Part shown: positions 1,134 to 61,398 of the stretch, piece after piece
Layout of the letters: each line of letters starts with the position of its first letter
Numbering within the stretch: the first letter of the stretch is position 1
Source: Arthrobacter beigongshangensis
Lineage (GTDB): Bacteria; Bacillota; Bacilli; Bacillales_A; Planococcaceae
Assembly (NCBI RefSeq): GCF_016820585.1
Contig: NZ_JADHDX010000003.1
Coordinates: 124,001-188,000, forward strand
DNA: 64,000 nt
Direction: 5' to 3'
Program-made: the position numbers and the translations under genes
Notes under the pieces: model-generated
Database searches by the model: none
What the model was told of the DNA's origin: nothing
Seen by the model: the letters and a program-made list of their open reading frames with translations, nothing else

Positions 1134-1178
1134 TTTATCTAAATTCAGATAAAGCCTCCGGCGGATGTCACAGATTAA
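1134..1178 (+). repeat. Dispersed structured repeat, copy A (left half only)
   Basis: The copy has a left hairpin (TTTATCT/AGATAAA) followed by the conserved box GCCTCCGGCGGATGTCAC and AGATT. The long stem and right hairpin seen in full copies are absent. It ends about 20 bases before the start codon of the SCO gene and points the same way as that gene. Confidence 0.75.
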
Positions 1179-1199
1179 ACCATGAGGGAGTGATCGATT

Positions 1200-1835
1200 A
1201 TGATCCACAAGCGACATAATGTACTAGCGACAATCATCGTTCTACTCTTTGGCTTTGTTCTATTTTATGTAGGAACTGATCAGTTCAGTGCATTTACTGC
1301 GGAAACGGCGCGGGTGAATAAGTTAGTGGAGGAAAAACCGCAATTTCCTGATGTTACATTTGAAGATAGTAAGGGGCGCACTTATTCAATTGATGAATTT
1401 AAAGGAAAATATGTTTTCATTACATTTATTTATTCGATGTGCACAACAGTTTGTATTGATTTGGAAATGAATATGGACCAGGTATATGATTTAATTCCAA
1501 AAGAGTATATCGGAAAAGACATACAGTTTTTAAGTATTAGCTTTGACCCTGAACGCGATGATCCCGAAAGATTAGATATTTATAAAAATCTATTTACGAA
1601 TAGTGATGGAGAACTATGGCGAATGGCAAGGATTAAGGATCAGAAGGAACTACAATTCTTGTTGGATGAGTTTGGGGTTATTGTAATTCCCGATGAATAT
1701 GGAAACTTCGCGCATAATTCAGCATTCTATTTAGTTGACAGGCAAGGTACTTTAGCGGAGGTCTTAGATTATAAGAAGATTGAGGAAGCAGCGAATGCAG
1801 TCATCAAAATCCTTGATGAAGAAGCAGGTGTGTAG
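1200..1835 (+). CDS. SCO1/SenC/PrrC family copper chaperone
   Basis: A 211-residue membrane-anchored, thioredoxin-fold protein expected to deliver copper to the CuA site of cytochrome oxidase, or to keep its cysteines reduced, on the outer face of the membrane. Residues 10-30 form an N-terminal membrane anchor. The SCO copper motif CxxxC is present as CTTVC near residue 82, and the distal copper ligand His lies in an FAHNSAF segment near residue 168. Start ATG has GAGGGAG upstream. It lies downstream of an oxidase subunit and three bases before the next membrane protein gene, so it probably acts on the neighbouring oxidase. Length matches Bacillus SCO proteins. Confidence 0.9.
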   Translation: MIHKRHNVLATIIVLLFGFVLFYVGTDQFSAFTAETARVNKLVEEKPQFPDVTFEDSKGRTYSIDEFKGKYVFITFIYSMCTTVCIDLEMNMDQVYDLIPKEYIGKDIQFLSISFDPERDDPERLDIYKNLFTNSDGELWRMARIKDQKELQFLLDEFGVIVIPDEYGNFAHNSAFYLVDRQGTLAEVLDYKKIEEAANAVIKILDEEAGV

Positions 1836-1838
1836 GCT

Positions 1839-2399
1839 ATGAAACAATTTAAGTACGGTTTGGTACTCTATCTATTTTTAGTCCTTCCTCCGGTCGCAAA
1901 TGTGTTGGAGTCAATTATGATTATGCATATGCATATGCAAATGCCGTTATTTGTTATGGCAGGTTTTTTAATGGCGAAGCTATTCCAACAAAAGTTTCCA
2001 CGCTTCTTTGACAAATGGAATGGTAATGGGATACCTGGTATTTTGCTATTTTCTATCATTATGATGTATTGGATGATTCCCCGAACAATGGACGAAGCAT
2101 TGACTATGCAAAGTATAGAGTTATTTAAGTTCATCAGTTTACCTTTTTTAGCGGGGATTCCCCTGCGCGATAGCTGGGGAAAAGTGAGCTTACTCATAAA
2201 AAAGATTGTCTTTACTAGTTTTACAATTGTCTTTTTAGCGATGGGGATATTGTATATTATGGCACCTGTTCAATTATGTAATAATTATTTACTAATTGAG
2301 CAAATCATACTTGGGTGGGGCTTTTTAACGACCTCCTTCGTAATGATTATTTACTTATTCTATTTCCGATTTACTGATCGATCACCAGGGGAAGTATAA
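1839..2399 (+). CDS. Met/His-rich membrane protein of the oxidase cluster
   Basis: A 186-residue protein with about five predicted membrane segments and no family that I recognise. A striking Met/His stretch, IMHMHMQM, sits near residues 28-35 at the end of the first helix, and looks like a possible copper-binding run. The gene starts three bases after the SCO gene stop and is followed by a terminator, so both are co-transcribed. Copper handling or oxidase assembly is inferred from position and composition only. Confidence 0.65.
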   Translation: MKQFKYGLVLYLFLVLPPVANVLESIMIMHMHMQMPLFVMAGFLMAKLFQQKFPRFFDKWNGNGIPGILLFSIIMMYWMIPRTMDEALTMQSIELFKFISLPFLAGIPLRDSWGKVSLLIKKIVFTSFTIVFLAMGILYIMAPVQLCNNYLLIEQIILGWGFLTTSFVMIIYLFYFRFTDRSPGEV

Positions 2400-2407
2400 T
2401 GTCGATG

Positions 2408-2439
2408 AAAAGCTGATTGCATAAAGCGGTCAGCTTTTT
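2408..2439 (+). terminator. Terminator after the SCO/membrane protein genes
   Basis: Stem AAAAGCTGA/TCAGCTTTTT with a 13-base loop, 8 bases after the stop codon. Confidence 0.8.
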
Positions 2440-2455
2440 GCATTCTAATTATCTA

Positions 2456-2484
2456 TTGAATAGGTCGTTCTACTCGTATATAAT
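2456..2484 (+). promoter_or_regulatory. Sigma-A promoter of the amino acid ABC transporter
   Basis: TTGAAT at 2456-2461 and TATAAT at 2479-2484 are separated by exactly 17 bases, about 75 bases before the first gene of the transporter operon. Confidence 0.75.
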
Positions 2485-2558
2485 GATAAATAACTATCTG
2501 GAAGATTCAGATAATTTAAATTGATAGTAGCAAAAAAATTATGCAGGGGGGAATTATT

Positions 2559-3371
2559 ATGAAGAAGACAGGTCGTTTCTTGTTATTCGGAGTTCTTTTA
2601 GTTAGTTTAAGTGTTGTATTGTTTGGATGTGGGACAAAGGATTCAGGTTCATCAACGAATGTTGGGGGGGGAGAAGTTGAGGAAGATGCTGAAGGCGTTC
2701 GCAAGCTGACTGTTGGAACTGATGCAACGTATGCGCCGATGGAATCGATGGACGAAAAAGGGAATATTGTTGGGATTGACATTGATATTGTGAAAGCGAT
2801 TGCAGAGGCGGCAGGCTTTGAAGTGGAATTTAAAAATATAGGATGGGAACCACTATTTCCAGCAGTAGATAACGGTGAAGTAGATTTTGCTGTTTCTTCC
2901 ATAACGATTACAGAAGACCGTCAGAAAACATATGACTTCACAGATCCATATTTTAGCGCCAACCAACTTATTCTAGTTCCTGAAGATTCTTCAGTAGAAA
3001 ATTTTGAAGACTTGAAGGATAAGCGTGTAGCTGTTCAAATTAATACAACTGGCCATATTGTTACAAAGGGCTTGTTAGGGGACACAAGCTCTAAAATTGT
3101 GGCAGCAGAAACTATGCCATTGGCGATTAGTGAAATGATCAACGGTAATGCTGATGCTGCTGTAGGGGATAATGCTGTTATTATCGATTACAAAGCTAAT
3201 AATCCGAAAGTACAATTGAAAACAATTGAGGATGCTAGTTTTGAAAAAGAATTTTACGGATTAATGGTTAAAAAAGGGAATACAGAAATTGTAGAATTGT
3301 TGAATGAAGGAATTCAAATCATCAAAGACAACGGGAAATTGAAAGAAATCACAGGTTTTGATTTAGAGTAA
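2559..3371 (+). CDS. Polar amino acid ABC transporter, substrate-binding lipoprotein
   Basis: A 270-residue solute-binding protein of the family 3 (HisJ/GlnH-like) type, which captures a polar amino acid outside the membrane and hands it to the permease. It has a lipoprotein signal with lipobox LFGC near residue 23, followed by a low-complexity Gly/Glu linker. The core shows GTDATYAPMES and FTDPYFSANQ signatures of the family. The ATG at 2559 is chosen over an in-frame ATG at 2541 because GGGGGGA sits at the right distance. The permease and ATPase genes follow, so this is a complete importer. The substrate cannot be told from sequence. Confidence 0.92.
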   Translation: MKKTGRFLLFGVLLVSLSVVLFGCGTKDSGSSTNVGGGEVEEDAEGVRKLTVGTDATYAPMESMDEKGNIVGIDIDIVKAIAEAAGFEVEFKNIGWEPLFPAVDNGEVDFAVSSITITEDRQKTYDFTDPYFSANQLILVPEDSSVENFEDLKDKRVAVQINTTGHIVTKGLLGDTSSKIVAAETMPLAISEMINGNADAAVGDNAVIIDYKANNPKVQLKTIEDASFEKEFYGLMVKKGNTEIVELLNEGIQIIKDNGKLKEITGFDLE

Positions 3372-3411
3372 AGAGCTCTCTACATCAAGCTGTGATAGGG
3401 GAGTGGTAGAT

Positions 3412-4134
3412 TTGGATTTCTTAGATATACGTTGGGATATGTGGGGGATTATTTGGAATTATCGTGAATTATTTATTCGCGGGATCGGAATTACAGTATC
3501 ACTCACGCTAATTAGTTACGTATTAGGGCTTATCTTAGGGTTATTCGTCGGTATGGGGAAGCTGTCAAAAAAGAAATGGCTGTACTATCCATGTAAGTTC
3601 TATGTAGACTTTTTCCGTGGGACGCCGTTGTTAGTACAAATTTTATTAATTCATACAGCGGTGATCCCGGGGATTTTCGGTCATTCCTTAGGCTATTTCA
3701 CATCAGGGGTCATTGCGTTAACCTTGAATAGTGCCGCTTATAATGCGGAAATTATTCGTGCAGGTATTCAGTCGATTGAAAAAGGGCAGATGGAAGCGGC
3801 AAGATCCCTCGGTATGACAACAGTGATTGCGATGAAGAATATTATTTTACCGCAAGCTTTTCGCCGCATGGTCCCACCACTGGGGAATGAATTGATTGCC
3901 TTGTTAAAAGATTCATCATTATTGATGGTCATCGCAGCAAATGATATATTGTTTGCAGGTAAAGTTGTTGCTGGAGCTACGCTAAGATTTTGGGAGCCAT
4001 ATATTATGGTTGCGATTCTTTACTTATGCTTAACCTTTGTACTAGGGAAATTGATTTCGTATGTGGAAAAACGCTTTAGTAATAGTTATATCCCGATGCG
4101 AAGAAAAAGCTCTTTTTTATCACGGCGTTCTTGA
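3412..4134 (+). CDS. Polar amino acid ABC transporter, permease
   Basis: A 240-residue inner membrane permease of the His/Glu/Gln/Arg/opine family, with about five helices. The EAA loop that docks to the ATPase is visible as [10 protein letters not shown] near residue 125. [10 protein letters not shown] segment is also typical of the family. The first in-frame candidate, GTG at 3403, overlaps the Shine-Dalgarno AGGGGAG at 3397-3403, so the TTG at 3412, with 8-base spacing, is the likely start. It lies between the binding protein and ATPase genes in one operon. Confidence 0.9.
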
Positions 4135-4153
4135 AAGTAGGAAGGTGAATAAG

Positions 4154-4876
4154 ATGATCAAGGTCCAAGGGTTAGTGAAATCATTTGGGAAGTTGGAAGT
4201 GTTAAAGGGCATTGATTATGAAGTGAGAGAAAAAGAAATTATTTGTGTCATTGGCCCAAGTGGTTCAGGAAAAAGTACTTTTTTGCGATGCATTAATTTG
4301 CTGGAGGATATTACGGCTGGGGAAGTTTTTATTGACGGTGTGAAGGTCAATGATCCCAAAACGGATATTAATGAGATTCGCAAAGAAGTGGGGATGGTGT
4401 TTCAGCAGTTTAACCTGTTTCCGCATATGCGCGTCATAGATAACATTACAATTGCTCCGAAAAAAATTAAAAAAATGAATGCGGCGGATGCTGAGACGCT
4501 CGCTCATCAATTGCTAAAAAAGGTCGGACTTGCGGATAAGGCGAATGTTTATCCCGAGCAATTATCAGGTGGTCAAATGCAGCGTGTTGCGATTGCTAGG
4601 GCTTTGGCTATGCAACCGAAAATCATGCTATTCGACGAACCAACTTCGGCACTTGATCCAGAGATGGTCAATGAAGTGTTAGATGTGATGAAGCAGTTGG
4701 CGCAGGAAGGCATGACAATGGTTGTTGTTACGCATGAAATGGGCTTTGCGAAAGAAATGGGCGACCGTGTGTTATTCATGGATGGCGGTTATCTAGTAGA
4801 AGAGGGAACGCCTGACCAGGTGTTCAATGCGCCGAAAAATGAACGGACGAAAGCATTTCTGAGCAAAGTACTGTAA
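4154..4876 (+). CDS. Polar amino acid ABC transporter, ATP-binding protein
   Basis: A 240-residue ABC ATPase that powers the upstream permease. Walker A (GPSGSGKST) is near residue 35, the Q-loop near residue 86 (FQQFNLF), the signature LSGGQ near residue 138, and Walker B with DEPTSALD near residue 160; the switch His is in VVTHEM. The ATG at 4154 with AGGAAGGTG upstream is chosen over a frame extension to 4061 that overlaps the permease gene. Closest in style to GlnQ/ArtP-type ATPases. Confidence 0.94.
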
Positions 4877-4879
4877 GGG

Positions 4880-4923
4880 AAAGCCGTACTATTTCAAAAT
4901 GATTTGAGATAGTATGGCTTTTT
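4880..4923 (+). terminator. Terminator of the amino acid transporter operon
   Basis: A long stem starting AAGCC(G)TACTAT and closing with ATAGTATGGCTT, followed by TTTTT, directly after the ATPase stop. Confidence 0.85.
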
Positions 4924-4988
4924 GGCGTCGTTGTTTCTATTAGGTGTAGCATTAAATGATTGATGAATAGGACAAGGTGGTTGTTAGG

Positions 4989-5438
4989 ATGAAAAAATGG
5001 ACGAGCGAAGTTGAGATTAATGCATCGATTGAGAAGGTGTGGCAGTTATTTGACGGTTCTTTAGAAAATATGCAAAAAATTATGCCGAAAGTTGTTGAAA
5101 ACAAGCCAGTAACGATAACGGAGGAAAAGGTTGGAAGTATCTATTTGCAACAATATCAAGAAGGTAAGCGTGTGATGGAATACGAGGTAAAAACGTTAGA
5201 GTATAGCGATTCTGCGGACGCAAAAAAGATGAAAGCCGGTTTTACACTCGCTAACATGTTTGATATAACAGCACGCTACGAATTGACCAAAATTGATAAT
5301 ACTACAACCTTGTTTACCTATACAACGACAAATCGCCCATTAAAATGGTTTGTGAAATTATTTTTACTATTTGGCAATGATAAAGTGGTTGTTGAATTTG
5401 TACAACGCGTAAAAAAAGTCGCTGAATCGGAAAACTAA
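4989..5438 (+). CDS. SRPBCC (START-like) family protein
   Basis: A 149-residue soluble protein. The opening WTSEVEINASIEKVWQLF segment is characteristic of the SRPBCC/polyketide cyclase-like ligand-binding fold, which binds a hydrophobic ligand in a deep pocket. No catalytic residues can be assigned. The ATG at 4989 is chosen because AAGGTGG lies 8 bases upstream; an in-frame GTG at 4977 overlaps that site. It stands alone between two terminators, so neighbours give no clue to its role. Confidence 0.75.
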   Translation: MKKWTSEVEINASIEKVWQLFDGSLENMQKIMPKVVENKPVTITEEKVGSIYLQQYQEGKRVMEYEVKTLEYSDSADAKKMKAGFTLANMFDITARYELTKIDNTTTLFTYTTTNRPLKWFVKLFLLFGNDKVVVEFVQRVKKVAESEN

Positions 5439-5457
5439 AGTGTGGTTGACGTAAACG

Positions 5458-5489
5458 AGCCATTCCATCATTGAGATAGAATGGCTTTT
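5458..5489 (+). terminator. Terminator after the SRPBCC gene
   Basis: Stem AGCCATTC/GAATGGCT with a 13-base loop and a TTTT tail. Confidence 0.75.
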
Positions 5490-5552
5490 ACATATCTACT
5501 TATTTGGGAATATAGCGCTATAGCGGGGACTATATATATGACTCGCACTGGA

Positions 5553-6263
5553 TCAGTGATATAAGTAAATCTTCAAATCATCATGGTCATCAAGTGTAGC
5601 AAGTAAAATATCCTGTGCATTCACGTTAAAGATTGAAAATTTATTGTCCAACCATACATTATCTTTACCCGATTGATGTAATGCGTTGAAGTCGATTTTT
5701 CCTTCTTTAATGATTATGTTTGGAAATGAAAATGGCTTTTTGACCAATTGCATATCCTCTGGGGTCAGTGCTTGTAGCTGAGGCGACAGGAAAAATGAAA
5801 TGGTACCATCCGGTTCCCATTGTGCTAGAGTAACCTGACTGACAGCCTCGATTTTTTCCTTGCGTAATTCTGATAATAAATGATCGATTGTGATTCTTGC
5901 TTTTGCTAAGCTTGCATAAATTATTTCACCATTTTTGATCAAGGGATAAGGGGGAGGCTCAAACCACTTTCTGAAAGTATTCCATTTTAAACTCAAAAAC
6001 ACGAAAAAAATATATAAAATAATTAATACTGTCGTTGTGATCAAGGATCCTTTCATTCCTAATTTTTCGTCTGATAACGGGTGCGCAAGAATATTTCCGA
6101 GTATTAAAGCAATGGTAAAATCAATGAGTCGTAACTGTGAAATCGATCGTGCACCCATCATTTTCGTTGCGATTAGCAGGAAGAAGAATGAAATAATTGC
6201 TCGCAAAATCCATTGGATGGACGTCAGTGTCTCTTGTCCATAAAAAAATCCATAGATCCTCAC
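5553..6263 (-). CDS. DUF421 (YetF-like) membrane protein
   Basis: A 236-residue protein with three N-terminal membrane helices and a soluble C-terminal domain typical of DUF421/YetF proteins. The family marker region after helix 1 (ATKMMGARSISQLRLIDF, residues 37-54) is present. In the known family these proteins sit in the membrane and some have been linked to spore or germination functions, but the biochemical role is unclear. A second, separate DUF421 gene lies at about 40.8 kb. The two differ greatly outside the core, so they are old paralogues. The region between this gene and corA (6264-6518) holds no gene. Confidence 0.8.
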   Translation of the reverse strand: MRIYGFFYGQETLTSIQWILRAIISFFFLLIATKMMGARSISQLRLIDFTIALILGNILAHPLSDEKLGMKGSLITTTVLIILYIFFVFLSLKWNTFRKWFEPPPYPLIKNGEIIYASLAKARITIDHLLSELRKEKIEAVSQVTLAQWEPDGTISFFLSPQLQALTPEDMQLVKKPFSFPNIIIKEGKIDFNALHQSGKDNVWLDNKFSIFNVNAQDILLATLDDHDDLKIYLYH

Positions 6264-6518
6264 ATCCCTAATGATTGTTAGATTTCAGTCATTAGTCTTT
6301 CCGATAATCCGAAAATTATGTGATGAAATGTGAGATGATTTCAAATGACAGGTTATTGTTATGAAAAATCTCTCACTACGTATGGCATCATGTACAATCG
6401 AGAAGAACTATTGCATGAAGAGAAGTCGATGCTATACATAAAGGTGATCAATTGGACAAATAGGATTTGAAGTTATCGAGGTATCGTGACAATAGTGGAA
6501 AAGAGAGAAGGTGGAACA

Positions 6519-7481
6519 ATGATTCGGACGATAGGACTTACACATAACGATGAATTTATTTTTGATTTTCCATTGGCCGAAATATCGACCCATTCATTGA
6601 AGTGGTACTGGGTGGATTTTGATCAGCCAGATACCGATGAGGAATTGATGCTTCATTCGGTCTTCAATTTTCATCCGCTTGCTATCGAAGATTGCCTACA
6701 TCGTTTACAACGGCCGAAGCTAGATTACTATGATGAGTATGCATTCTTTGTACTGCATTCCCTACGTCATGACGATTTAGCAGCTGAAGAGTTAAATCTG
6801 TTTCTTGGTAAAAATTTTGTTGTGACGTTTCATTACGAGGATATACAAGAATTGACGCAAGTACGCGAAAAGATTGTGCACAATACGAAAAAGTGGGATC
6901 GGGATCATGTGTTTACTGCCTATCAAATCATTGATCAAGTCGTCGATCACTATTTCCCCATCCTTTATAAAATTGAAGACCATTTGAATGAAATCGAAGA
7001 TCAGCTGTCGCCAACAACCGTTCATTTGTCAATGGATTATGTCTTTGAAGTTCGTAGTGACTTGTTGCGTTTACGGCGTACGATTTTTCCGATGCAGGAG
7101 CTTTTATATCGAATGCTCTATTCAGAGCGATTAGGCTTAACTTCAAATGAGCGAGCTTATTTCACAGATATTTACGATCATTTGCTGCGGTTAGGAGAAA
7201 TCATAGAAGCGAATCGTGAACTAACGGCTGATATAAGGGATAGCCAGCTATCCATCAATTCGAATCGGATGAACAGTATTATGATGACCTTGACAATTAT
7301 TTCGTCCATCTTTATCCCGTTAACATTCATAGCTGGTGTGTATGGGATGAATTTCGATTACATGCCGGAATTGCATTGGCGTTATGGCTATGGAATTGTC
7401 CTTGGAGTTATGCTCATGATAGGAGTAGCTATGGGGATGTTCTTTAGAAGCAAGGGATGGTTGCGCATATTTAAGTCTTAA
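6519..7481 (+). CDS. corA: CorA family magnesium/divalent cation transporter
   Basis: A 320-residue CorA-type channel for Mg2+ or related divalent cations. It has a long cytoplasmic alpha/beta domain, a long stalk helix and two C-terminal membrane helices. The signature YGMN follows the first helix near residue 284 (VYGMNFDYMPEL). ATG at 6519 is preceded by GAAGGTGG; the frame is open to 6486 but that start has no ribosome-binding site. A terminator follows. Whether it carries Mg2+, Co2+ or Ni2+ cannot be told. Confidence 0.92.
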   Translation: MIRTIGLTHNDEFIFDFPLAEISTHSLKWYWVDFDQPDTDEELMLHSVFNFHPLAIEDCLHRLQRPKLDYYDEYAFFVLHSLRHDDLAAEELNLFLGKNFVVTFHYEDIQELTQVREKIVHNTKKWDRDHVFTAYQIIDQVVDHYFPILYKIEDHLNEIEDQLSPTTVHLSMDYVFEVRSDLLRLRRTIFPMQELLYRMLYSERLGLTSNERAYFTDIYDHLLRLGEIIEANRELTADIRDSQLSINSNRMNSIMMTLTIISSIFIPLTFIAGVYGMNFDYMPELHWRYGYGIVLGVMLMIGVAMGMFFRSKGWLRIFKS

Positions 7482-7503
7482 TCATCATTCCGGTTGTAAA
7501 AAT

Positions 7504-7542
7504 AAATGCCATTGCATCCGTTTGAGATGTAATGGCATTTTT
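7504..7542. terminator. Bidirectional terminator between corA and cynS
   Basis: AAATGCCATT...AATGGCATTTTT stem, between two convergent genes, with A- and T-rich flanks that suit both strands. Confidence 0.75.
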
Positions 7543-7571
7543 ACTAGTATGGGAACATCTTTATTCGTCAC

Positions 7572-8024: not shown

Positions 8025-8157
8025 GGAAATTAGCTCCTTTGCTAGTAGAGGATTTGTTACTACTAGTTTACCATTTTGATAATTGTGGAAGCCATTCATT
8101 CGAGTGAAATGTGCATTTTAAATATAGATTTAGGGCGGAATTGTGACTTAGACCTTA

Positions 8158-8700: not shown

Positions 8701-8761
8701 AAAAATACCTCCCAAGTTTAGAATTTTTTTTTTGGATAGGATAGCATATTGTTCGATATGT

Positions 8762-8770: not shown

Positions 8771-8811
8771 CTATATTATTAGAAAAATGAATTCCGCAAA
8801 TCGCAATTAGG

Positions 8812-9999: not shown

Positions 10000-10012
10000 T
10001 GAATATTGGACG

Positions 10013-10113: not shown

Positions 10114-12180
10114 GTGGACAAATCATCTGAAAATGACAGGCAGATTGTCGCTGGAAATAGCAAGGATCGGCAGTTGGAACAGTATCGTGTGGATAACTTT
10201 GGCAAGAAGATGACGACCAATCAAGCGATGAAAGTTTCGAATGACGAGGAGTCGTTAAAAGCAGGGGTGCGCGGTCCGACGTTAATGGAGGATTTTCATT
10301 TCCGGGAAAAAGTGACGCATTTTGACCATGAACGAATTCCGGAGCGAGTTGTTCATGCGCGAGGATATGCGGCGCATGGGGAATTTGAATTGTATAAGTC
10401 GATGAAGGAATTTACAACAGCGGGATTTCTACAGGAACCTGGAACGATTACGCCTGTATTTACTCGTTTTTCGAATGTTGTAGGTAGCTCAGGATCGGCA
10501 GACACCGTACGGGATGTTAAGGGGTTCGCTGTAAAGTTTTATACGGAACAAGGGAATTATGATCTTGTTGGTAATAATATTCCGGTGTTTTTCATTCAGG
10601 ATGGATTGAAGTTTCCAGATTTGATTCATGCAATTAAGCCTGAGCCCCATAATGAAATACCGCAAGCTTCCTCCGCACATGATACATTTTGGGATTTCGT
10701 TGCTAACAATCAAGAATCAGCACATATGATTATGTGGCTAATGTCAGACCGAACAATTGCAAAAAACTTTCGCATGATGGAAGGATTCGGCGTTCATACT
10801 TTTCGATTTGTCAATGCACAGGGAATATCTAGATTTGTGAAGTTTCACTGGAAGCCTTTGCTTGGCGTCCATTCACTTGTGTGGGATGAAGCACAAAAAA
10901 TATCTGGTAAAGATCCTGACTTCCAACGACGTGATTTATGGGAGTCCATTGAACATGGCAATTTTGCTGAGTATGAGCTTGGCGTCCAAATGATCAATGA
11001 AGAAGACGAATTCATGTTTGATTTTGATATTTTGGATGCGACGAAACTATGGCCAGAAGAGATTGTCCCTGTTCAGATATTCGGCAAGATGACGCTAAAT
11101 CGCAATGTAGATAATGTTTTTGCGGAAACAGAGCAAGTGGCTTTTCATCCTGGCAATGTAATCCCGGGCATTGATTTTACGAATGATCCGCTCCTGCAAG
11201 GAAGGCTGTTCTCTTATTTGGATACGCAGCTGATTCGACTTGGGGGACCAAACTTCACGGAAATTCCGATTAACCGCCCTGTTTGTCCATTTCATAACAA
11301 TCAACGCAATGGGTACAGCCGGCAAACGATTAATGTTGGGCAAATCAGCTATCATAAAAATTCGCTTGCGGATAACACACCGTCGACATCTACGGCACAA
11401 GAAGGCGGATTTGTTCATTATGCAGAAAAAGTAGAGGGGCGTGTCATTCAAGCACGCAGTGAGTCGTTTAAGGATTTCTTTTCACAGGCGAGGCTTTTCT
11501 GGAACAGTATGTCGCCTTGGGAGAAGCAGCATATTATTGATGCGTTCACCTTCGAAGTTGGCAAAGTGAAAAGCAGGAGTGTCCGTCAGCAGGTAGTCGA
11601 TATGTTTGCACATGTGGATAGGGAGATGGCAACGCTGATTGCAGAAGGCGTTGGCGTAAACCCACCAACTGCCGAACAGTCTACTGTCACAGCGTCATCA
11701 CCAGCGCTGAGTCAGGCTAATACGCTACACGTGCCGCAGACGCTGAGGGTTGGTGTGCTAATCGGTAATGATTTTAATGGTGCGGAAGTGAAGGCAGCTG
11801 TGCGGACGTTTAGGGATTATGGAGTCACGGTTGATATTGTTGGTGAAAAGTTAGGGACTGTGCAAGGGGCAGATGGGCTAAAAGTAATGGTAAATGAGAC
11901 GTTTTTGACGACGGATCCTGTGTTGTTTGATGCATTGTATGTTGTGGGCGGAACTGCGACTAATCAAGCAAAGTTTAACTATGATATTGAGTATTTTATT
12001 GATGAGGCATTTAAGCATTTCAAGCCGATTGGTTTTGCAACAACAGGTTTGCCATTTTTTGAAGCATCGGATGCAAAAGCAGGGCCGGGCATTGTCTTTG
12101 CGAGCGATAATCCAAATTTTGATCAAGAATTTGTGAAGGCAATTGCGCAGCAGCGGTTTTGGGATAGGCAGGTTTATTAG
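10114..12180 (+). CDS. Large-subunit (clade 2, HPII-type) monofunctional catalase
   Basis: A 688-residue heme catalase that breaks down hydrogen peroxide. The distal His is in RVVHARGYAAHG near residue 80, the essential Asn in LVGNNIPVFF, and the proximal heme-ligand Tyr in RLFSYLDTQ near residue 370. After the core, a Pro/Ser/Thr-rich linker near residue 535 leads to a C-terminal DJ-1/PfpI-like domain (LRVGVLIGNDFNGAEV), as in E. coli HPII and Bacillus KatE. GTG at 10114 has GAAGGGGA directly upstream; an ATG at 10099 in frame is weaker. An inverted repeat overlaps the stop codon. In Bacillus this class is often under sigma-B control; no such promoter could be confirmed. Confidence 0.93.
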   Translation: MDKSSENDRQIVAGNSKDRQLEQYRVDNFGKKMTTNQAMKVSNDEESLKAGVRGPTLMEDFHFREKVTHFDHERIPERVVHARGYAAHGEFELYKSMKEFTTAGFLQEPGTITPVFTRFSNVVGSSGSADTVRDVKGFAVKFYTEQGNYDLVGNNIPVFFIQDGLKFPDLIHAIKPEPHNEIPQASSAHDTFWDFVANNQESAHMIMWLMSDRTIAKNFRMMEGFGVHTFRFVNAQGISRFVKFHWKPLLGVHSLVWDEAQKISGKDPDFQRRDLWESIEHGNFAEYELGVQMINEEDEFMFDFDILDATKLWPEEIVPVQIFGKMTLNRNVDNVFAETEQVAFHPGNVIPGIDFTNDPLLQGRLFSYLDTQLIRLGGPNFTEIPINRPVCPFHNNQRNGYSRQTINVGQISYHKNSLADNTPSTSTAQEGGFVHYAEKVEGRVIQARSESFKDFFSQARLFWNSMSPWEKQHIIDAFTFEVGKVKSRSVRQQVVDMFAHVDREMATLIAEGVGVNPPTAEQSTVTASSPALSQANTLHVPQTLRVGVLIGNDFNGAEVKAAVRTFRDYGVTVDIVGEKLGTVQGADGLKVMVNETFLTTDPVLFDALYVVGGTATNQAKFNYDIEYFIDEAFKHFKPIGFATTGLPFFEASDAKAGPGIVFASDNPNFDQEFVKAIAQQRFWDRQVY

Positions 12181-12208
12181 GGAGGAATGCAGTTCAATTC
12201 CTCCCTAA
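12177..12208 (+). terminator. Perfect inverted repeat at the catalase stop codon
   Basis: A perfect 12-bp stem (TTAGGGAGGAAT/ATTCCTCCCTAA) with loop GCAGTTCA. It begins inside the catalase stop and runs into repeat copy B. There is no T-run, so it may be an RNA processing or repeat-associated hairpin rather than a terminator. Related hairpins with a CAGTTCA-like loop occur near 28.6 and 40.1 kb. Confidence 0.5.
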
Positions 12209-12237
12209 TAAAGTCTCCGGCGGATGTCACGGATTAA
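12207..12237 (+). repeat. Dispersed structured repeat, copy B (left half only)
   Basis: Conserved box (GTCTCCGGCGGATGTCAC, one change from copy A) plus GGATT, directly following the catalase hairpin, which takes the place of the left hairpin. It lies about 110 bases before the next start codon, in the same direction. Confidence 0.7.
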
Positions 12238-13189: not shown

Positions 13190-13475
13190 CTGTCAGAGTA
13201 ATTTGGTGAACTGTAAGGGTAATTCGGTGAACTGTAAGAGAAAACGGTAAAACTGTAAGAGAAAGTACTGAAACTGTAAGAGTATTCGCGGACTGTCAGA
13301 GTAATTCAGTGAACTGTAAGAGAAAACGATAAAACTGTATGAGCAGGTATTGAAACTGCAAGAGTATTCGCGGGCTGTCAGAGTAATTTGGTGAACTGTA
13401 AGAGAAAGTGATAAAACTGTATGAGAAAGTACTGAAACTGCAAGAGTATAGACGGACTGTCATGGAAATCTATGA
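13190..13475. repeat. Phased tandem repeat, 21-bp unit in an 82-bp superrepeat
   Basis: Fourteen degenerate units beginning CTGTAAGAG or CTGTCAGAG start at 13190, 13211, 13232, 13253, 13274, 13293, 13314, 13335, 13356, 13375, 13396, 13417, 13438 and 13457. Spacing is 21 bases, except that every fourth step in the regular part is 19, giving an 82-base superperiod repeated from 13211. No open reading frame spans it because the 19-base steps break the frame. It lies between convergent HAD and serA genes. Function unknown. Confidence 0.9.
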
Positions 13476-16354: not shown

Positions 16355-16489
16355 ATCAATTACGCCTCGGCGTAATTGCGTCTGGATTTTGAATTGAGCA
16401 AGCTCGATTAATTCCTTTCAAAATCCGTGACATCCGCCGGAGGCTTTATTTTTATTCAGCAGGAACTTGAACTTCTGCTGAATAAAAAT
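16355..16489 (-). repeat. Dispersed structured repeat, copy C (full, compact)
   Basis: Read on the minus strand it has a left hairpin with a 14-bp perfect stem (TTTTTATTCAGCAG/CTGCTGAATAAAAA), the box GCCTCCGGCGGATGTCAC, a long stem GGATTTTGAA/TTCAAAATCC, and a right hairpin AATTACGCC/GGCGTAATT. It sits between the T-box terminator and the ribosome-binding site of the aminotransferase gene, so it forms part of that mRNA leader. Confidence 0.85.
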
Positions 16490-16765
16490 AAAAAAAGCCT
16501 TCCGTCCCTTACAAATAATTGTAAGGGGCGAAAAGCTAGATTAGCTCACGCGGTACCACCCTGATTTACTGTCAGCAACTATATACACAATCTGACAGTC
16601 TTCGTTAGCATGCTTAACGGGCATGTGGCGGATTGGCTTACTGCAAATTTCAGCCTCTCAATTCCGAAGTGCTACTTTACGTTGAAATCACTGATTCACA
16701 CCATCCATCAGCTCTCTTAAGATTTCATCACTTAAAGCCTGTCTTCATCATTACATTTTGAATTG
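16490..16765 (-). promoter_or_regulatory. T-box riboswitch, probable serine type
   Basis: On the minus strand the T-box sequence AGGGTGGTACCGCG (plus-strand 16549-16562) is exact. It is followed by a terminator stem (16503-16530) and a T-run. Upstream lies a Stem I region with AGAGAGC and a GGTGTGAATC segment. The most likely specifier codon is AGC (serine) at plus-strand 16671-16673, followed by A as usual. Uncharged tRNA-Ser would allow read-through into the aminotransferase-serA operon. T-box identity is firm; the codon is inferred. Confidence 0.9.
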
Positions 16766-18997: not shown

Positions 18998-19157
18998 GAA
19001 AAACCCTCCTTTAATACGTCTATATAGAATTCCCTAAACGGAATTTTTTATGACTACAAATTTTTCGAAGTGAAATTCACTGAAAATATGAACGAATCGT
19101 TCGGGTAATGATACAATTAAAATGCGTTAAATAATTAACTAACAGGAGTGATGACAA

Positions 19158-21044: not shown

Positions 21045-21259
21045 AAAAGGGATGCTCTCAATTTGAGAACACCCCTTTATTTGGTCGGTAACATTTAAGT
21101 TTTGAATGTAATTTTTCATCCCGAATGTTCGGGGAATAATTTCCATAGAAAGGATAAGCTTTCAGTGCCGCGGTCATTGTTCCACTGGGTGTTCTCTAAC
21201 CTAAGCAACGCAAACCCTACCTACTTTTGCGTCCTTGCGACCCTATAGTCGCGCCAGTG
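21045..21259 (-). promoter_or_regulatory. Structured leader of the GDPD gene, riboswitch-like, class unknown
   Basis: On the minus strand a three-way junction can form. P1 is CACTGG (21259-21254) with CCAGTG (21188-21183); P2 is GCGAC/GTCGC (21252-21237); P3 is ACGCAAA/TTTGCGT (21232-21208). Downstream is a 16-bp hairpin (21078-21045) ending in TTTT. It pairs fully only on this strand, through G-U pairs that would be mismatches on the other. GAGAACACCC, next to the P1 3' arm (21196-21187), is an exact complement of the 5' arm of that hairpin, so two alternative folds are possible. I do not recognise the aptamer. Confidence 0.55.
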
Positions 21260-21379
21260 TGAATAAGTATTCTCAAAAACATTTGTAGAATGCCAGATAT
21301 TCAAGTCTTGACAGTTACCTATTTGTTAACTGATTGACTATAGCACGAAGAGTTCAGTTTGTCAAATGAAATCGAGAAA

Positions 21380-26789: not shown

Positions 26790-26956
26790 AAGAAAAGCCG
26801 CCTTTGCCGTACGGTCTTAGAAAGTTTTAAACCACCACTTCTCAAAGTGGGTGTTCGCAGAAACAATCCTGTTTGTCCTCGTTATCGAAAGAACGAGGTA
26901 TGCCATTCCCGTTTCTAGAAAAAACTCCCGTTTACAGCTTAAAGGTTAAAACTTAA
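26790..26956 (+). ncRNA. Candidate structured non-coding RNA
   Basis: A gene-free stretch behind a TATAAT box (26778-26783). It can form CCACTT/AAGTGG (near 26834-26850), CCTCGTT/AACGAGG (26876-26897), AGAAAC/GTTTCT around the latter, and an end stem AAGTTTTAAACC with GGTTAAAACTT. The rod-like shape with a wide bulge and a GTGGGTGTTC segment is loosely like 6S RNA, but I cannot confirm it. The strand is also uncertain. The rest of 26598-27087 shows only the hairpins listed. Confidence 0.35.
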
Positions 26957-27087
26957 TGTTGATACGCACAACGCAGCTTCTAGAACAAAGTCTACACCAA
27001 TTGAAGTGAATTATCAAATGAAATAGTTGGAAATAGGACATTAAGTATGACTATGAATTAAAGTTTTTCACTATAATTCATAGTCTC

Positions 27088-28525: not shown

Positions 28526-28706
28526 CTTTATCTGAACTCAGATAAAGCCTTCGGCGGATGTCATGGATTTTTACGGGGTGCTTAAGAAGGCAGCCTAAGT
28601 GCGCGACGTCCTGTCGCAGTAAGGAAGGATCAGTTCAATCCTTCCCCCCTGTAGGCCTAAAGCTCGAAAAAATCCGGACGCAATTATGCCGGGCCATAAT
28701 TGATTA
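28526..28706 (+). repeat. Dispersed structured repeat, copy D (full, long)
   Basis: Left hairpin TTTATCTGA/TCAGATAAA, the box GCCTTCGGCGGATGTCAT, and a long stem GGATTTTT/AAAAATCC. It encloses a branched centre with a hairpin GGAAGGAT/ATCCTTCC, then right hairpin AATTATGCC/GGCCATAATT. It ends 17 bases before the next start codon. The flanks share AAAGGGAGG (28474-28482 and 28706-28714). Confidence 0.85.
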
Positions 28707-37002: not shown

Positions 37003-37170
37003 CTCTTATCAAGAGAAGCTGAGGGATATGGCCCATTGAAGCTTCAGCAACCTCTGACGTTGTCAGAAAGGTGCTACCTCCAACAGGACTTTTTGTCTTG
37101 AGAGATAAGAACTGAGAGCCTAAAGCAAACCCTCTTTTCTTGTCATATAGAAAAGAAGGTTTTTCTTTTT
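37003..37170 (+). promoter_or_regulatory. SAM-I riboswitch (S-box) with terminator
   Basis: The aptamer (37003-37111) has P1 CTTATC/GATAAG, AGAGAAGCTGAGGGA, the GAAGCTTCAGCAACC block and AGGTGCTA. Those are the core S-box sequences. A terminator stem (CCTCTTTTCT with AGAAAAGAAGG) and T-run follow at 37127-37170. SAM would stop transcription into metA. Confidence 0.95.
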
Positions 37171-43830: not shown

Positions 43831-43854
43831 AACAATCCCCTTTTTTTCGTCATA

Positions 43855-43952
43855 TTCATCACGCCCAGCGTGATTGTGTCGGATTTTTTCGAGTGAGCTC
43901 GAAAGGCTTCCTTAGAAATCCGTGACATCCGCTAAAGGCTTTTCTGAATGTA
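43855..43952 (-). repeat. Dispersed structured repeat, copy E (full, compact)
   Basis: On the minus strand it has the box GCCTTTAGCGGATGTCAC, a long stem GGATTT/AAATCC, and a right hairpin ATCACGC/GCGTGAT. The right stem differs from the common AATTACGCC/GGCGTAATT, but the pairing is kept. It ends about 25 bases before the HAD-IB gene start, in that gene's direction. Confidence 0.8.
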
Positions 43953-44040
43953 AATAAATAATTCTCTTGTTCAATCATACAGTGTTTGTATTATGGAGGC
44001 AATTTGAGGATAATGAAGGTGAGAGTGAGGCGTTTTTAAT

Positions 44041-45668: not shown

Positions 45669-45770
45669 TACATATCCTCCTAAAGATTGATTATTTTTAT
45701 CGTCAGTAGTATGGATGTTGAAATGAAATCTATACATTAGAAATGATGCATAATTATCACTGCGCAAAAA

Positions 45771-45964
45771 TAGGCTTAGATAAAGCCTCTGGCAGATGTC
45801 GCGGATTTTTAAGTGAGCTTAAGAAGGCAGTCTAAGTGTGCCACTTCCTAAATATGTGCCTTAATTTCTGCAAAAGGCACAGAAATACGGCAAATCGAAC
45901 CCTCTGCAGTTCGATAGGCTTGAAAAAATCCGGACGCCATTACGCCAGGGCGTAATTGATTGAT
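45771..45964 (+). repeat. Dispersed structured repeat, copy F (full, long)
   Basis: Left arm GGCTTAGATAAAGCC, the box GCCTCTGGCAGATGTCGC, a long stem GGATTTTT/AAAAATCC with a branched centre, and the right hairpin ATTACGCC/GGCGTAAT. It ends about 20 bases before the LysM-GH18 gene start and points the same way. Its centre differs from that of copy D. Confidence 0.85.
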
Positions 45965-47737: not shown

Positions 47738-47875
47738 TTAACTTCATTCACTAGAAGTCTCCGACTTTTGCTGAATGAAGTTAAGTCTCCGGCGGAAGTC
47801 ACAGATTTTCAAATGAATTTTTCAATCGGGCTCGATGAAAATCTGGACGTAATTACGCCTAGGCGTAATTGATTA
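47738..47875 (+). repeat. Dispersed structured repeat, copy G (full, compact)
   Basis: Left hairpin AACTTCATTCA/TGAATGAAGTT with a long loop, the box GTCTCCGGCGGAAGTCAC, a long stem AGATTTTCA/TGAAAATCT and right hairpin AATTACGCC/GGCGTAATT. The A-T closing pair of the long stem replaces the G-C of other copies. It ends about 30 bases before the gdhA start. Confidence 0.85.
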
Positions 47876-49613: not shown

Positions 49614-51182
49614 ATGGAAGAAACAGTGGTTAAGAAAAAATCGTTTAAGACTTTAATTGTTCTGATTGTTACGGCTTTAGTCGTGGTAGGCGGAAGTGCA
49701 TCAGCATTTTTCCTATTGAATAAGTCATCAAAAGTCCAGTACTTTTTGGCTGAAGTGGAGACGTACAAACAAATGAGTACACTCGCAGAGGAACGCTATA
49801 AAAATGAAGTGAATTGGATGAAGGTTCAACAAGAGAAACCAGTGGAAACTAGGTATGATTTATCTGGTGAATGGAATGATTCATCTGTTGACTATATGAT
49901 GCAGGAAATTCAAAGTATCGTCAATAGTGTTACATTGTCTATGAATCAAGTATACGATCCAACGAACAAAGAGCTTGAAGTAGCATTGAGTGGAGAGCTT
50001 GGCAATCTATCTGTCGATTTCGGCTCCATTTTTGCGACGACTGAAAAGCTAGTGGCAGAATTGCCGTTTGTGGATGAACTTATCCGATTTGACGATAAGG
50101 ATTTCGGGAAAGTAATGAGAGAGTTTGACGAGAATTTTGAAGGTAATGAAAATCTGGGATTGCCTCAGTTATTTGAAAGTAGTTCTTCGTCAATGGAAGA
50201 AATGAATATGTATATCGAAAAAGAGTATATTGAATTCTTAATAAAAGAGCTTCCAGAAGATGCCTTTACGACTGACAAAGAAGAAATACTTGTAGCAGAT
50301 CAAAAGGTGAAAGCGAAAAAAATAACAATGAACCTCTCTGAAGAACAAGTGAAAACACTGTTGAAGGATCTATTGGCGAAAGCAAAAACGGATGAAAAGT
50401 TGAAAGAAATCGTCAAGAATCAATTGGGTGTTTCCGCATTTGCTGGGGATTTATCTGCAAGTGATCTTGCAATTGTTGTTGAGGAGTTTGACAAAGGCAT
50501 TGACGCTGCTATTGAAGGTGTGGATACATTAAGCATTCCAAACGGTCTTCAATCAACTATTTGGCACCAGTCTAACCATATTGTGAAGCGGGACTTTGCG
50601 TTGACAATTGGTTCTAATGAAGTTGATATAGTAGCAATTAATGTTACGGGTACACAATTACTGGAAAAAACGGCTCAGCAATTAGATTATAAGCTTGCTT
50701 TCACAGATTCCTTTGGTGACGAGAATGCTGTGAATATTAAAGGGAATTTATCATGGAAAGATCAAAAAGCTGACGACTCTATTGCTATTTCTGTAGAGGA
50801 TTTGAAGTTTAGTTATGATGGGCAAGAGGAATTGAAAGATAACAAAAGGACATTTACCCGTACTTTCAAATTTACAGATGGTTTCAGCGAACCAGCACTT
50901 ATTTGGAAAGGTAGTGCAACGCATGATAGCGATGCAATGAAGGCCAACCATGAATTTACAGTGAGTGAACGAGGCTTAGATGGAGATATGTTCAATTTAC
51001 TGATAAAGCAACAAGGGAAAGTCGTGAAAAAGGTAGATATGCCGGAAGAAACGGCTAATACGGTAAACGTTGGTCAGATGGACAGAGAACAGATTGAAAG
51101 TTTTATAGAATTAGAAGTAGTACCGAAAGTGGAAGACTGGTTTTACGATTTAATGGGTGATGTTGAAGGAGAACTTTATTAA
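49614..51182 (+). CDS. DUF6583 family membrane-anchored protein
   Basis: A 522-residue protein with one N-terminal membrane helix (residues 15-38, LIVLIVTALVVVGG) and a large external part without recognised enzymes. The pattern agrees with the DUF6583 proteins of Bacillales. Many internal repeats of acidic and Lys-rich helices are seen, and no Cys. ATG at 49614 has GAGGGGG upstream. It directly precedes the ABC exporter operon but is separated by repeat copy H. Function unknown. Confidence 0.72.
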   Translation: MEETVVKKKSFKTLIVLIVTALVVVGGSASAFFLLNKSSKVQYFLAEVETYKQMSTLAEERYKNEVNWMKVQQEKPVETRYDLSGEWNDSSVDYMMQEIQSIVNSVTLSMNQVYDPTNKELEVALSGELGNLSVDFGSIFATTEKLVAELPFVDELIRFDDKDFGKVMREFDENFEGNENLGLPQLFESSSSSMEEMNMYIEKEYIEFLIKELPEDAFTTDKEEILVADQKVKAKKITMNLSEEQVKTLLKDLLAKAKTDEKLKEIVKNQLGVSAFAGDLSASDLAIVVEEFDKGIDAAIEGVDTLSIPNGLQSTIWHQSNHIVKRDFALTIGSNEVDIVAINVTGTQLLEKTAQQLDYKLAFTDSFGDENAVNIKGNLSWKDQKADDSIAISVEDLKFSYDGQEELKDNKRTFTRTFKFTDGFSEPALIWKGSATHDSDAMKANHEFTVSERGLDGDMFNLLIKQQGKVVKKVDMPEETANTVNVGQMDREQIESFIELEVVPKVEDWFYDLMGDVEGELY

Positions 51183-51254
51183 CTTGATTCAAGTTAAGCC
51201 TCCGACGTACAGGATGTGGCGTTATTGTCGGCCGGCGGATGTTAAGGATTTTGA
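51178..51254 (+). repeat. Dispersed structured repeat, copy H (left half with an insertion)
   Basis: Left hairpin TTAACTTG/CAAGTTAA, then GCCTCCG, then about 29 extra bases (with GACGTACAGG), then GGCGGATGTTAAGGATTTT. The extra part splits the conserved box. It ends 24 bases before the ABC permease start, in the same direction. No right half is seen. Confidence 0.7.
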
Positions 51255-54877: not shown

Positions 54878-54918
54878 GTGATAAGTCCTCTCTATTTTTA
54901 CAGGAGAGGATTACTACA

Positions 54919-54985
54919 TATCAATTACGTCTTGGCGTAATTGCGTCCTGATTTTTTCGAGCTCGAAAAGCTCCACTTAAACTTT
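54919..54985 (-). repeat. Dispersed structured repeat, copy I (right half only)
   Basis: On the minus strand the right hairpin (AATTACGCC/GGCGTAATT with one change) follows a long-stem arm with GAGCTCGAAAAAATC. There is no left box. It lies in opposite direction to the next gene, unlike most copies. Confidence 0.7.
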
Positions 54986-54989
54986 TCTA

Positions 54990-55018
54990 TTGCAAAAGAA
55001 AGCGTAATCATTTATAGT
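54990..55018 (+). promoter_or_regulatory. Promoter of the licT-bgl operon with an internal cre-like site
   Basis: TTGCAA (54990-54995) and TATAGT (55013-55018) are 17 bases apart. Between them AGAAAGCGTAATCA (54997-55010) matches 12 of 14 cre positions. Glucose repression through CcpA would block this promoter. Confidence 0.65.
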
Positions 55019-55031
55019 GAAAGTAATCAGA

Positions 55032-55120
55032 GGATTGTTACTGTTTGGCAGGCAAAACCTGAATTGATTTAATTTATGGAAATGTTTATTTTCTATGAAT
55101 TACATTAGTTCAGGTTTTTA
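55032..55120 (+). promoter_or_regulatory. LicT antiterminator site (RAT) 1 with terminator
   Basis: GGATTGTTACTG...GGCAGGCAAAACC (55032-55060) is a canonical ribonucleic antiterminator. It overlaps the start of a terminator stem AACCTGAA/TTCAGGTT that ends in a T-run. Located before licT, so LicT regulates its own synthesis. Confidence 0.9.
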
Positions 55121-55145
55121 ATTTTTAAAAGGAAAAGTGGTGCCT

Positions 55146-55991: not shown

Positions 55992-57971
<1,980 letters not shown>

Positions 57972-57978
57972 AAATTGA

Positions 57979-59448
<1,470 letters not shown>

Positions 59449-59456
59449 TTTTAAAT

Positions 59457-59493
59457 AAAAACACATCGACGCCCAATGTCGATGTGTTTTTTT
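59457..59493 (+). terminator. Terminator of the bgl operon
   Basis: AAAAACACATCGAC/GTCGATGTGTTTTTTT. Confidence 0.9.
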
Positions 59494-59643
59494 ATGTATA
59501 TAAAATTTATGAAGGAAAACTATTAATCTATGTCGAATAAGTGTGAATAGTCATATTAATCTCGCTGCAGAGGAGGGATGTCGAAAACCAGGTCAATGAG
59601 TAAGAAGGAAGATTCACAAAATCGGAAATAGGAGGTAAACAAT

Positions 59644-61305
59644 GTGATGAAAAAGTTCAAATTTCGATTTCTTTTTGTAGTTGCACTCATGTTCCAAATG
59701 ATGGTAGTACCGTATCATTTTTCAGCGGATGAATTAGATACGAGCTCACCTACTTGGGCAGCACCAATCGATTATCTAGCTATAGGCGATTCATTGGCAG
59801 CTGGTGTTACCCCGAATAAGGAGTTAGGAAAAGGCTATGCGGATTATCTTGCGGAACTTCTTCATAGCAATGGGGTATTGAAGTCCTTTAACAAAGGTTT
59901 CTCGGCACCGGGATATAAAACGACAGATGTGTTGAACGATATTCAAAAGAATGTGACAAAGGACATTTATGGGGTTGGTTACGCAGAAAAGACAGCACAG
60001 CTTCAACAATCTATTAAAGATGCTGAACTAATTACGATAAGTGTCGGGGCGAATGATATTATACCTTTACTACAAAAAGATCCCGCTACTGGAATGGCTT
60101 CAGTAGATCAGCATGCGTTATTACAAGCACTTCAGCAAGTCGGTATAAACTACAAAATGCTGATGGCACAAATTAACCAATTGAATCCTAAGGCGCAGGT
60201 CTATGTCATGGGTTATTACAACTCGTTCCCTTATATGCCAGCGGTAATGCAACCAGAACTTAAGAAAATGCAAGATGCGTTGAATCAAGCCATTGCAACT
60301 GGGATAGTAGGCACACAAGCTGTTTTAGTAGCAACGGGCGATCAAATTGCGGCAGATTATAAGACATACCTTCCAAATCCAGAAGATATTCATTTGAGTG
60401 AAGCAGGTTATAAGAAGGTAACGGAGCAATTTTGGTCAAGTATGGAGAAGACTTATCCTTGGGTTTCGGCGAATGCACTATCAGCCACAGCTATTGAAGG
60501 GAACTCAGTAAATCTAAACTGGCAAGCAGCTGTTGATAATGTAGGGATTGTAAGTTATGAATTGTTTAATGGGAAAGAAAAACTGGCGACAGTTAATGGG
60601 GATGCCACTTCTTTTAAAGTTGAAAAACTTGCGGAAGGTACAGCATATACTTTTTCCGTGATAGCAATTGATAAAGCAGGAAATAAGAGTATTTTTAATC
60701 CTACTACCACTGTGAAGACGAAAGGTTCAGCGGGAACACCAACTCCGAAGCCGACGCCAGCACTGTTCTCGGATATTGCAGGGACAAATTTGAAAGCTTA
60801 TATTGAGCAAGCAGCGGCAGCGGGAATCGTTAGTGGATACAAGGATGGCACATTTAAGCCAAATGAAAACTTAACTCGATCACAAGCGGCTTCAATCATT
60901 GTACGTGCGCTAGGCATGAAAACAGATCAAGCAGCTCCATTTGGCGATATTGCTAACTTCTCTAATCAAACGAAAGCTGAGATCAATGCAGCATATAAAT
61001 ACGGTATCATACTCGGAAGTGGGGGTAATTTTAGACCGAATGCAGCAGTGACACGGGTAGAACTAGCGATGATGCTTGAACGTTCATATGTGTTTGCGAC
61101 AGAATCATCTTATAAGGCTTCTGGACATCCACCGTTTTCTGATATAGGAAATTATAGTGCAGGTACAATTAACGCAATCGCAATGGTTTATGAATTGAAA
61201 ATCGCGAGTGGATCTGCAGGCAAATTTATGCCGAATAATCCAACTACACGCGGACAAGCTGCAAAAATGTTTGTTAACTTCATGGCTTTGAGCCAAGCGA
61301 ATTAA
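59644..61305 (+). CDS. Secreted SGNH/GDSL hydrolase with fibronectin III and SLH domains
   Basis: A 553-residue cell-surface enzyme. Residues 1-28 are a signal peptide. The SGNH lipase/esterase domain (residues 38-280) has AIGDSLAAG near residue 46 (Ser nucleophile), VGANDI near residue 138, and the DIHLSEAGY catalytic Asp/His near residue 248. A fibronectin III domain (residues 283-360) and three SLH domains (residues 378-553) follow. SLH domains anchor it to the wall polymer. Start GTG at 59644 or ATG at 59647, both after GGAGG. Confidence 0.9.
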   Translation: MMKKFKFRFLFVVALMFQMMVVPYHFSADELDTSSPTWAAPIDYLAIGDSLAAGVTPNKELGKGYADYLAELLHSNGVLKSFNKGFSAPGYKTTDVLNDIQKNVTKDIYGVGYAEKTAQLQQSIKDAELITISVGANDIIPLLQKDPATGMASVDQHALLQALQQVGINYKMLMAQINQLNPKAQVYVMGYYNSFPYMPAVMQPELKKMQDALNQAIATGIVGTQAVLVATGDQIAADYKTYLPNPEDIHLSEAGYKKVTEQFWSSMEKTYPWVSANALSATAIEGNSVNLNWQAAVDNVGIVSYELFNGKEKLATVNGDATSFKVEKLAEGTAYTFSVIAIDKAGNKSIFNPTTTVKTKGSAGTPTPKPTPALFSDIAGTNLKAYIEQAAAAGIVSGYKDGTFKPNENLTRSQAASIIVRALGMKTDQAAPFGDIANFSNQTKAEINAAYKYGIILGSGGNFRPNAAVTRVELAMMLERSYVFATESSYKASGHPPFSDIGNYSAGTINAIAMVYELKIASGSAGKFMPNNPTTRGQAAKMFVNFMALSQAN

Positions 61306-61314
61306 TAGCATGTG

Positions 61315-61361
61315 AAAAATGGTCTCGACCTTCAGTCAATAGAAGGTGAGACCATTTTTTT
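61315..61361. terminator. Bidirectional terminator
   Basis: AAAAATGGTCTC...GAGACCATTTTTT with inner ACCTTC/GAAGGT arms, between convergent genes. Confidence 0.9.
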
Positions 61362-61398
61362 ATCTGGATGCAATTACGCCGAGGCTTAATTGATATCA
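61361..61398 (+). repeat. Dispersed structured repeat, copy J (right half only)
   Basis: ATCTGGATGC followed by the right hairpin AATTACGCC/GGCTTAATT. It overlaps the end of the histidinol-phosphatase gene. No left half is present. Confidence 0.65.

Follow-up and report, generated by a model that had tools for sequence, protein, structure and literature searches.

A mobile repeat inserted 3′ of a short target

A stretch of 64,000 nucleotides from the genome of Arthrobacter beigongshangensis, placed in the Planococcaceae by GTDB (contig NZ_JADHDX010000003.1, positions 124,001 to 188,000; hereafter the window), carries about ten dispersed copies of a structured repeat, designated A to J. What kind of element is this repeat, and why is its structure conserved? 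The sequences point to a family of non-autonomous, IS200/IS605-like (HUH, Y1) single-strand transposons with naturally diversified guides, a reading to which we give a probability of about 0.72. The copies share a box, GCCTCCGGCGGAT, which was matched seven times in the window with up to three mismatches (shuffled mean 0.01), in agreement with the initial annotation, near whose positions all ten copies were found. In the whole genome (3.65 Mb, 49 contigs) the box pattern gave 132 matches and the reversed-pattern control none. About ten copies per 64 kb is the typical density for this genome.

The repeat family is mobile. The sites of 138 copies with a right end were compared with two relatives, G040 (89% identity over the syntenic piece) and G014 (83-86%). 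Among the resulting 85 copy-by-relative comparisons, 33 sites were empty within 25 bases and 52 were filled or otherwise different. In the empty allele, TTTAT or TTAA runs directly into the flank; in the filled allele, TTTAT is followed by the element, from CTTC to its 3′ end AATTGAT, and then by the flank. Insertion is thus precise: the element, a mobile unit of 130-250 bp, lands 3′ of a short T-rich target, which remains in the left flank. Of the 27 sites whose flanks were at least 0.7 identical, 20 were best modelled with 3-5 nt of the 5′ arm retained as a single copy. The target is therefore host DNA and usually remains unduplicated. In genomes with few copies, decayed ones are found at shared positions, as expected for old insertions.

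Guide and target sequences usually match

The 16 nt located 5′ of the box can pair with the 5′ arm of the repeat. The 4-5 nt directly 5′ of the box, which we call the guide, are complementary to the target, which lies outside the element. With the 5′ arm selected solely on its inner 12 nt, 110 of the 138 copies passed, and in the outer four letters target and guide matched fully in 75 of these 110, compared to 21.0 ± 3.5 for permuted pairs (maximum 34 in 5000 shuffles). Identity per position was 0.79-0.95 across the target and 0.14-0.35 just beyond it, and guide:target pairing fell to background exactly at the box. An independent test in other, named genomes started from 117 copies, 92 of them with arms, and yielded 62 full matches (permuted 27.6 ± 3.0, maximum 41).

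Furthermore, the targets found in empty alleles match the guides of the filled ones in 3.22 of 4 letters (permuted 2.25, maximum 2.70). Three rare targets were cleanly present in the empty allele and matched by the guide, namely TCAA (L046:12162), CTGA (L070:6734) and TGAA (L056:7112, in two relatives), and a fourth, CTAA (L053:12163), matches with one A fewer in an A-run. Altogether 14 entries with rare guides could be held against empty alleles, giving six full matches (TGAA twice, CTGA, TCAA, TTTT and a doubtful TTGA) and otherwise partial or absent ones. The TTGA match depends on a gapped alignment and was excluded from the clean cases.

The guides also change. In 52 non-orthologous pairs of copies whose cores are at least 96% identical, the guide was shared in 54% and the target in 37%, with 66%/63% of the arm letters in common. 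Since such near-identical cores share so few arm letters, the left hairpins must have been swapped or rewritten fast while remaining paired. The variability of the left stem is partly explained by guide:target pairing, as host target DNA makes up its outer 4-5 nt. The match could arise either by a guide that mutates first and then finds its target, or by correction after insertion. Tentatively, and with somewhat less confidence than doubt, we suggest a self-retargeting family: between insertions the guide would be rewritten or swapped, which makes guide and host target vary together (TTTAT, TTAA, TCAA, CTGA, TGAA, CTAA).

Structure of the repeat

A full copy consists, from 5′ to 3′, of a left hairpin, the box, a long stem with an inner stem, and a right hairpin CAATTACGCC/GGCGTAATTG followed by AT. 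The initial annotation had joined the two halves by a long stem GGATTTT/AAAATCC; such a stem is present, but it is longer (GTC-A-CRGATTTTG / CAAAATCYG-GAC) and carries a bulged A that is nearly constant. The pair after this A varies between C-G, G-C, U-A and A-U.

Stem pairing was analysed in 62 of 63 short-spacing copies (one was left out), taken from 91 box matches in 863 kb. Here 96.8% of the cells were paired, compared to 88.0% after shuffling and 23-45% with slid partners. Changes on both sides were seen in 15 of the 30 stem pairs, and 149 cells were doubly changed where shuffling gave 42.3; many of these paired changes are common to subfamilies, so that the cells are not independent events. 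The three stems hold under compensatory change, as had been proposed from the window, and complementarity is likewise maintained in left hairpins of differing sequence. The initial annotation had taken this to favour a selected structure rather than a mobile repeat. The structure is real, but the alternative was a false one, as the empty sites show a mobile repeat. Read as DNA, the top strand folds far better than its shuffles, and the conserved structure is best read as that of single-stranded-DNA transposon ends.

Many copies contain extra modules inside the loops of the long stem and the left hairpin. In long copies (L040, L046, L054, L066 and, in the window, D and F) the inner modules are small hairpins of differing stems with a constant RTCCT loop, for instance GCGAC-GTCCT-GTCGC, CCCGC-ATCCT-GCGGG and CCTAC-ATCCT-GTAGG. 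In other copies, such as L036:6954-7516, the inner stem region is large or the box contains an insert (CCTCCGACGTACAGGACGTCG...), which suggests that the element grows by hairpins placed within hairpin loops.

A candidate single-strand transposition mechanism

IS200/IS605 elements insert 3′ of a 4-5 nt target in the left flank without duplicating it, carry a guide at the foot of a hairpin and show a lagging-strand bias (PMC6006769, PMC7290912, PMC8612924, PMC5934647). Our repeat resembles these elements (IS608, ISDra2) in 3′ insertion, lack of target duplication, a guide 5′ of a hairpin foot and strand bias. Judged by GC skew, the top strand lies on the lagging-strand template in 104 of the 138 copies and in the other orientation in 34. 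The bias is also seen away from co-directional leading-strand genes (36:19, p = 0.03), and among lagging-strand gene pairs five of seven copies follow replication and not the genes, although these numbers are small.

On this reading, a full copy is built of a host target (TTTAT or TTAA), a left hairpin with variable arms, a 4-5 nt guide, the box with the bulged-A stem, and a right hairpin ending at GAT. A Y1 transposase acting in trans would fold the top strand and cut 3′ of the target and after the terminal GAT. Excision would produce a single-strand circle, which may then be inserted where the guide meets its complement on exposed lagging-strand template. As guides change over time, different copies would reach different short targets. 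Mobilisation in trans would probably come from transient IS605 elements.

There are also clear differences. Unlike IS200/IS605 elements, the repeat has no gene, possesses several hairpins and extends the target:guide pair into a long stem-loop, and one repeat family uses many natural guide/target pairs. It ends in GAT, whereas the IS605 elements of the genus end in GTTCAA. Palindrome-associated transposable elements (PATEs) are described as ends-only IS605 derivatives mobilised in trans (PMC7290912); compared with them, our repeat is high-copy and has a box, a long stem and a right hairpin beyond an IS605-like right end. REP/BIME sequences, associated with TnpA-REP, are intergenic palindromes with a tetranucleotide tag and, in one group, bulged hairpins (PMC3733652, PMC6006769, PMC8266576). 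According to these sources, REPs measure 20-65 nt and bear GTAG or CGTC tags; the tag of our repeat is variable and complementary to the flank. The bottom strand does carry GCGTC 5′ of the right hairpin, yet the mobile unit is of the larger size given above and its tag varies.

A connection to IS605 elements was seen in the left loop. A hidden Markov model (HMM) made from 27 copies with a longer left loop (spacing 95-112) was run against 36 loci. It weakly matched the left end of an insertion sequence with a Y1 transposase in G003 (L293, E 0.0033) and the left end of a TnpB gene of the own genome (L222, E 0.0046), and gave a sub-threshold match in G023 (E 0.17). Comparison of copy with copy showed that two intact tnpA-tnpB elements of the genus are inserted at TTTAT and TTTAA, the two main targets of the repeat, and end in GTTCAA and GTTCA. 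The left-hairpin loop of the repeat often reads GTTCAA (e.g. L048:16811, L063:4652), also the terminal letters of the IS605 right ends of the genus. The repeat runs past its own GTTCAA into the box and the right hairpin, and it is therefore not a simple ends-only derivative; its right end is not shared with the IS605 right ends of the genus.

Five TnpB genes and a single broken Y1 match are present in the own genome, and Y1 genes occur in 51 of 68 genomes of the genus. In tests with copy numbers counted up to 70, copies tended to be fewer in genomes whose Y1 gene is longer, at about 170-390 aa (medians 2.5 and 8, p = 0.07, kinship ignored). A Y2/IS91-type HUH transposase was considered as a common mover and rejected, being absent from five of six high-copy genomes; six were found in G014.

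Several observations weigh against the transposon reading. The full guide match is absent in 35 of the 110 copies, and among guides other than TTTA/TTAA in the named genomes only 10 of 25 match. Of the rare guides held against empty alleles, two TTTC guides face TTTT and TTTA, a TCAA guide faces TTAA, and two more fail. Two sites (window position 19130 and L051:10606) are ambiguous, and a duplication of 3-4 nt is possible there. Copy orientation and gene direction are largely confounded, and the excess of A.C mismatches (60) over sense-strand G.T pairs (32), due in part to subfamily changes that were inherited, is no argument for the top strand. The left-loop matches are weak, and neither the bulged A nor the right end was matched to a known TnpA footprint. 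No transposase linked to the family ends was found among the Y1 loci and TnpB genes examined: in the 30 Y1 loci neither the complete-box nor the right-end pattern was present, one locus (L312) having a weak short-box match. Y1 genes were not found in the copy-rich genomes G051 (at least 70 copies) and G016 (35 copies), and copy number did not correlate with small intact Y1 genes (p = 0.87).

Alternative explanations

An unlikely alternative is that the repeat is a Planococcaceae counterpart of bcr1 of Bacillus cereus, moved by a mechanism resembling site-specific recombination that favours TTTAT. The bcr1-bcr3 repeats of the B. cereus group are mobile, measure 100-400 bp, reach up to 130 copies and have a TTTAT motif (PMC6542083). 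The similarity of bcr1 in size, copy number and motif, together with the lack of a transposase found for our repeat, speaks for such a relationship. However, our covariance model matched only 19 of 398 genomes of the class, 17 of them from the own family, and base-paired guiding accounts better for the varied, guide-matched targets than would a recombinase with a single core site. The bcr repeats, which we compared by description only, belong to another bacterial family, and guide:target pairing is not mentioned for them in the accessible text of that source. The two readings could coincide, as bcr1 may itself be IS605-like.

Quite improbable, in our view, is a plain palindromic repeat without guide function, the stems of which are kept only by template-switch (quasi-palindrome) correction. 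The arms that are replaced fast and still remain complementary between near-identical cores would fit this explanation, but correction alone leaves the precise insertion 3′ of a short target unexplained. Template switching could nevertheless be a source of guide matches to imperfect targets after insertion.

It is very improbable that the repeat is a cis-acting RNA element, such as a leader regulator, that was duplicated to many places in the genome and kept by selection on the RNA. The paired changes would suit an RNA, right ends are often found no more than about 40 nt upstream of a start codon, and of the 64 copies located between co-directional genes, 51 have the sense orientation. Nevertheless, among 90 own copies (one edge copy was excluded) 13 are antisense and nine convergent, with 17 divergent; insertions are polymorphic between relatives, copy number ranges from 0 to at least 70 within one genus, the orientation bias follows replication, and there is neither a G-U preference nor a match in Rfam. 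The sense-RNA test by G.T versus A.C (32:60), confounded by inherited subfamily changes, showed no G.T preference. Nothing supports a sense RNA, and orientation tracks replication at least as well as transcription. A miniature inverted-repeat transposable element moved by a DDE transposase was dismissed, as the terminal inverted repeats and target duplication of that class were not found.

Distribution of the family

A covariance-model search of this genome and its relatives had been proposed from the window. With a model built from the 62 own-genome copies, the search gave at least 121 matches at E ≤ 0.001 in the 3.65-Mb genome (the best 150 of 2288 candidates were scored). Matches were present in 55 of 61 genomes of the same genus, and 151 of 250 sampled genomes of the own family, from 13 of 19 genera, contain the repeat. 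Sporosarcina, Lysinibacillus, Psychrobacillus, Metasolibacillus, Rummeliibacillus, Filibacter and Bacillus ndiopicus are among the matches listed. The initial annotation knew of no named family of this kind, and indeed no Rfam model run against the window overlaps a copy, up to E 10. No published description of the repeat was found in a search limited to the open-licence literature. Sequence comparison for plasmid or phage carriage of copy C gave no match, nor did a window protein match viral contigs.

Copies and other features in the window

All ten copies had been described as sharing two modules, which holds for C, D, E, F and G; only the left module is present in A, B and H, and only the right part in I and J. 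Complete copies lie on both strands. Copy C (16355..16492, minus strand) has its target TTTAT at 16492-16488, its box at 16444-16427 and its right hairpin at 16382-16355, and its site is occupied in G040. Copy D (28527..28704, plus) contains inner hairpin modules, with the target TTTAT at 28527 and the right hairpin at 28677-28704; copy E (43854..43959, minus) is diverged and its boundaries are approximate. The sites of D and E are occupied in both G040 and G014. Copy F (45764..45960, plus) has a complete core, inner modules, a decayed left arm and a right hairpin at 45933-45960, and its site holds shorter copies in both relatives. Copy G (47738..47873, plus) carries the target TTAA at 47738-47741, a guide directly 5′ of the box at 47785 and the right hairpin at 47846-47873; both relatives have a clean empty allele.

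Among the partial copies, copy A (1134..1175, plus) comprises the target TTTAT (1134-1138), the left hairpin, the guide ATAAA and the box, ends in ..CACAGAT without a right half, and has an empty site in both relatives. Copy B (12173..12234, plus) consists of TTTAT, a left hairpin of the AGGGAGGAAT type and the box, also without a right half; its site is occupied in G040 and G014, the latter by a longer copy. Copy H (51180..51250, plus) has the left hairpin TTAACTTG/CAAGTTAA and an insert-bearing box but no right half, and longer copies occupy its site in both relatives. Copy I (54920..54990, minus, approximate start) retains only the right hairpin (54947-54920) and part of the long stem. Copy J (61359..61394, plus) is a minimal form of TTTAT, CTG and the right hairpin (61367-61394), and its site is empty in G040.

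Copy C is located between a T-box leader (16521-16760, minus strand, 99.5 bits) and the open reading frame (ORF) of that leader, directly after a terminator-like T-run and before the ORF start. A SAM riboswitch (37003-37111), 6S RNA (26791-26982, minus) and the small RNA BsrC (21195-21282) also scored above the Rfam gathering scores. Furthermore, a tandem-like array at 13190-13469 is made of CTGTAAGAGTAAT... units of about 21 nt with spacings of 21, 21, 61 and 82. A 39-nt repeat, 87% alike, precedes two ORFs at 55024-55062 and 55993-56031; it weakly matches, below threshold, the bglG/LicT cis-regulatory family and perhaps represents antiterminator sites.

Implications for the family

The transposon reading offers an explanation for a widespread, unnamed repeat found in Sporosarcina, Lysinibacillus, Psychrobacillus and relatives, one that could otherwise be taken for a regulatory RNA. 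In IS200/IS605 elements, guide-directed target choice is known from IS608 and engineered variants (PMC5934647). If self-retargeting is true, this family would be a natural equivalent of the reprogrammed guides engineered into IS608. More than 100 copies per genome, many natural guide/target pairs and empty sites in sister species make the evolution of guide reprogramming directly testable.

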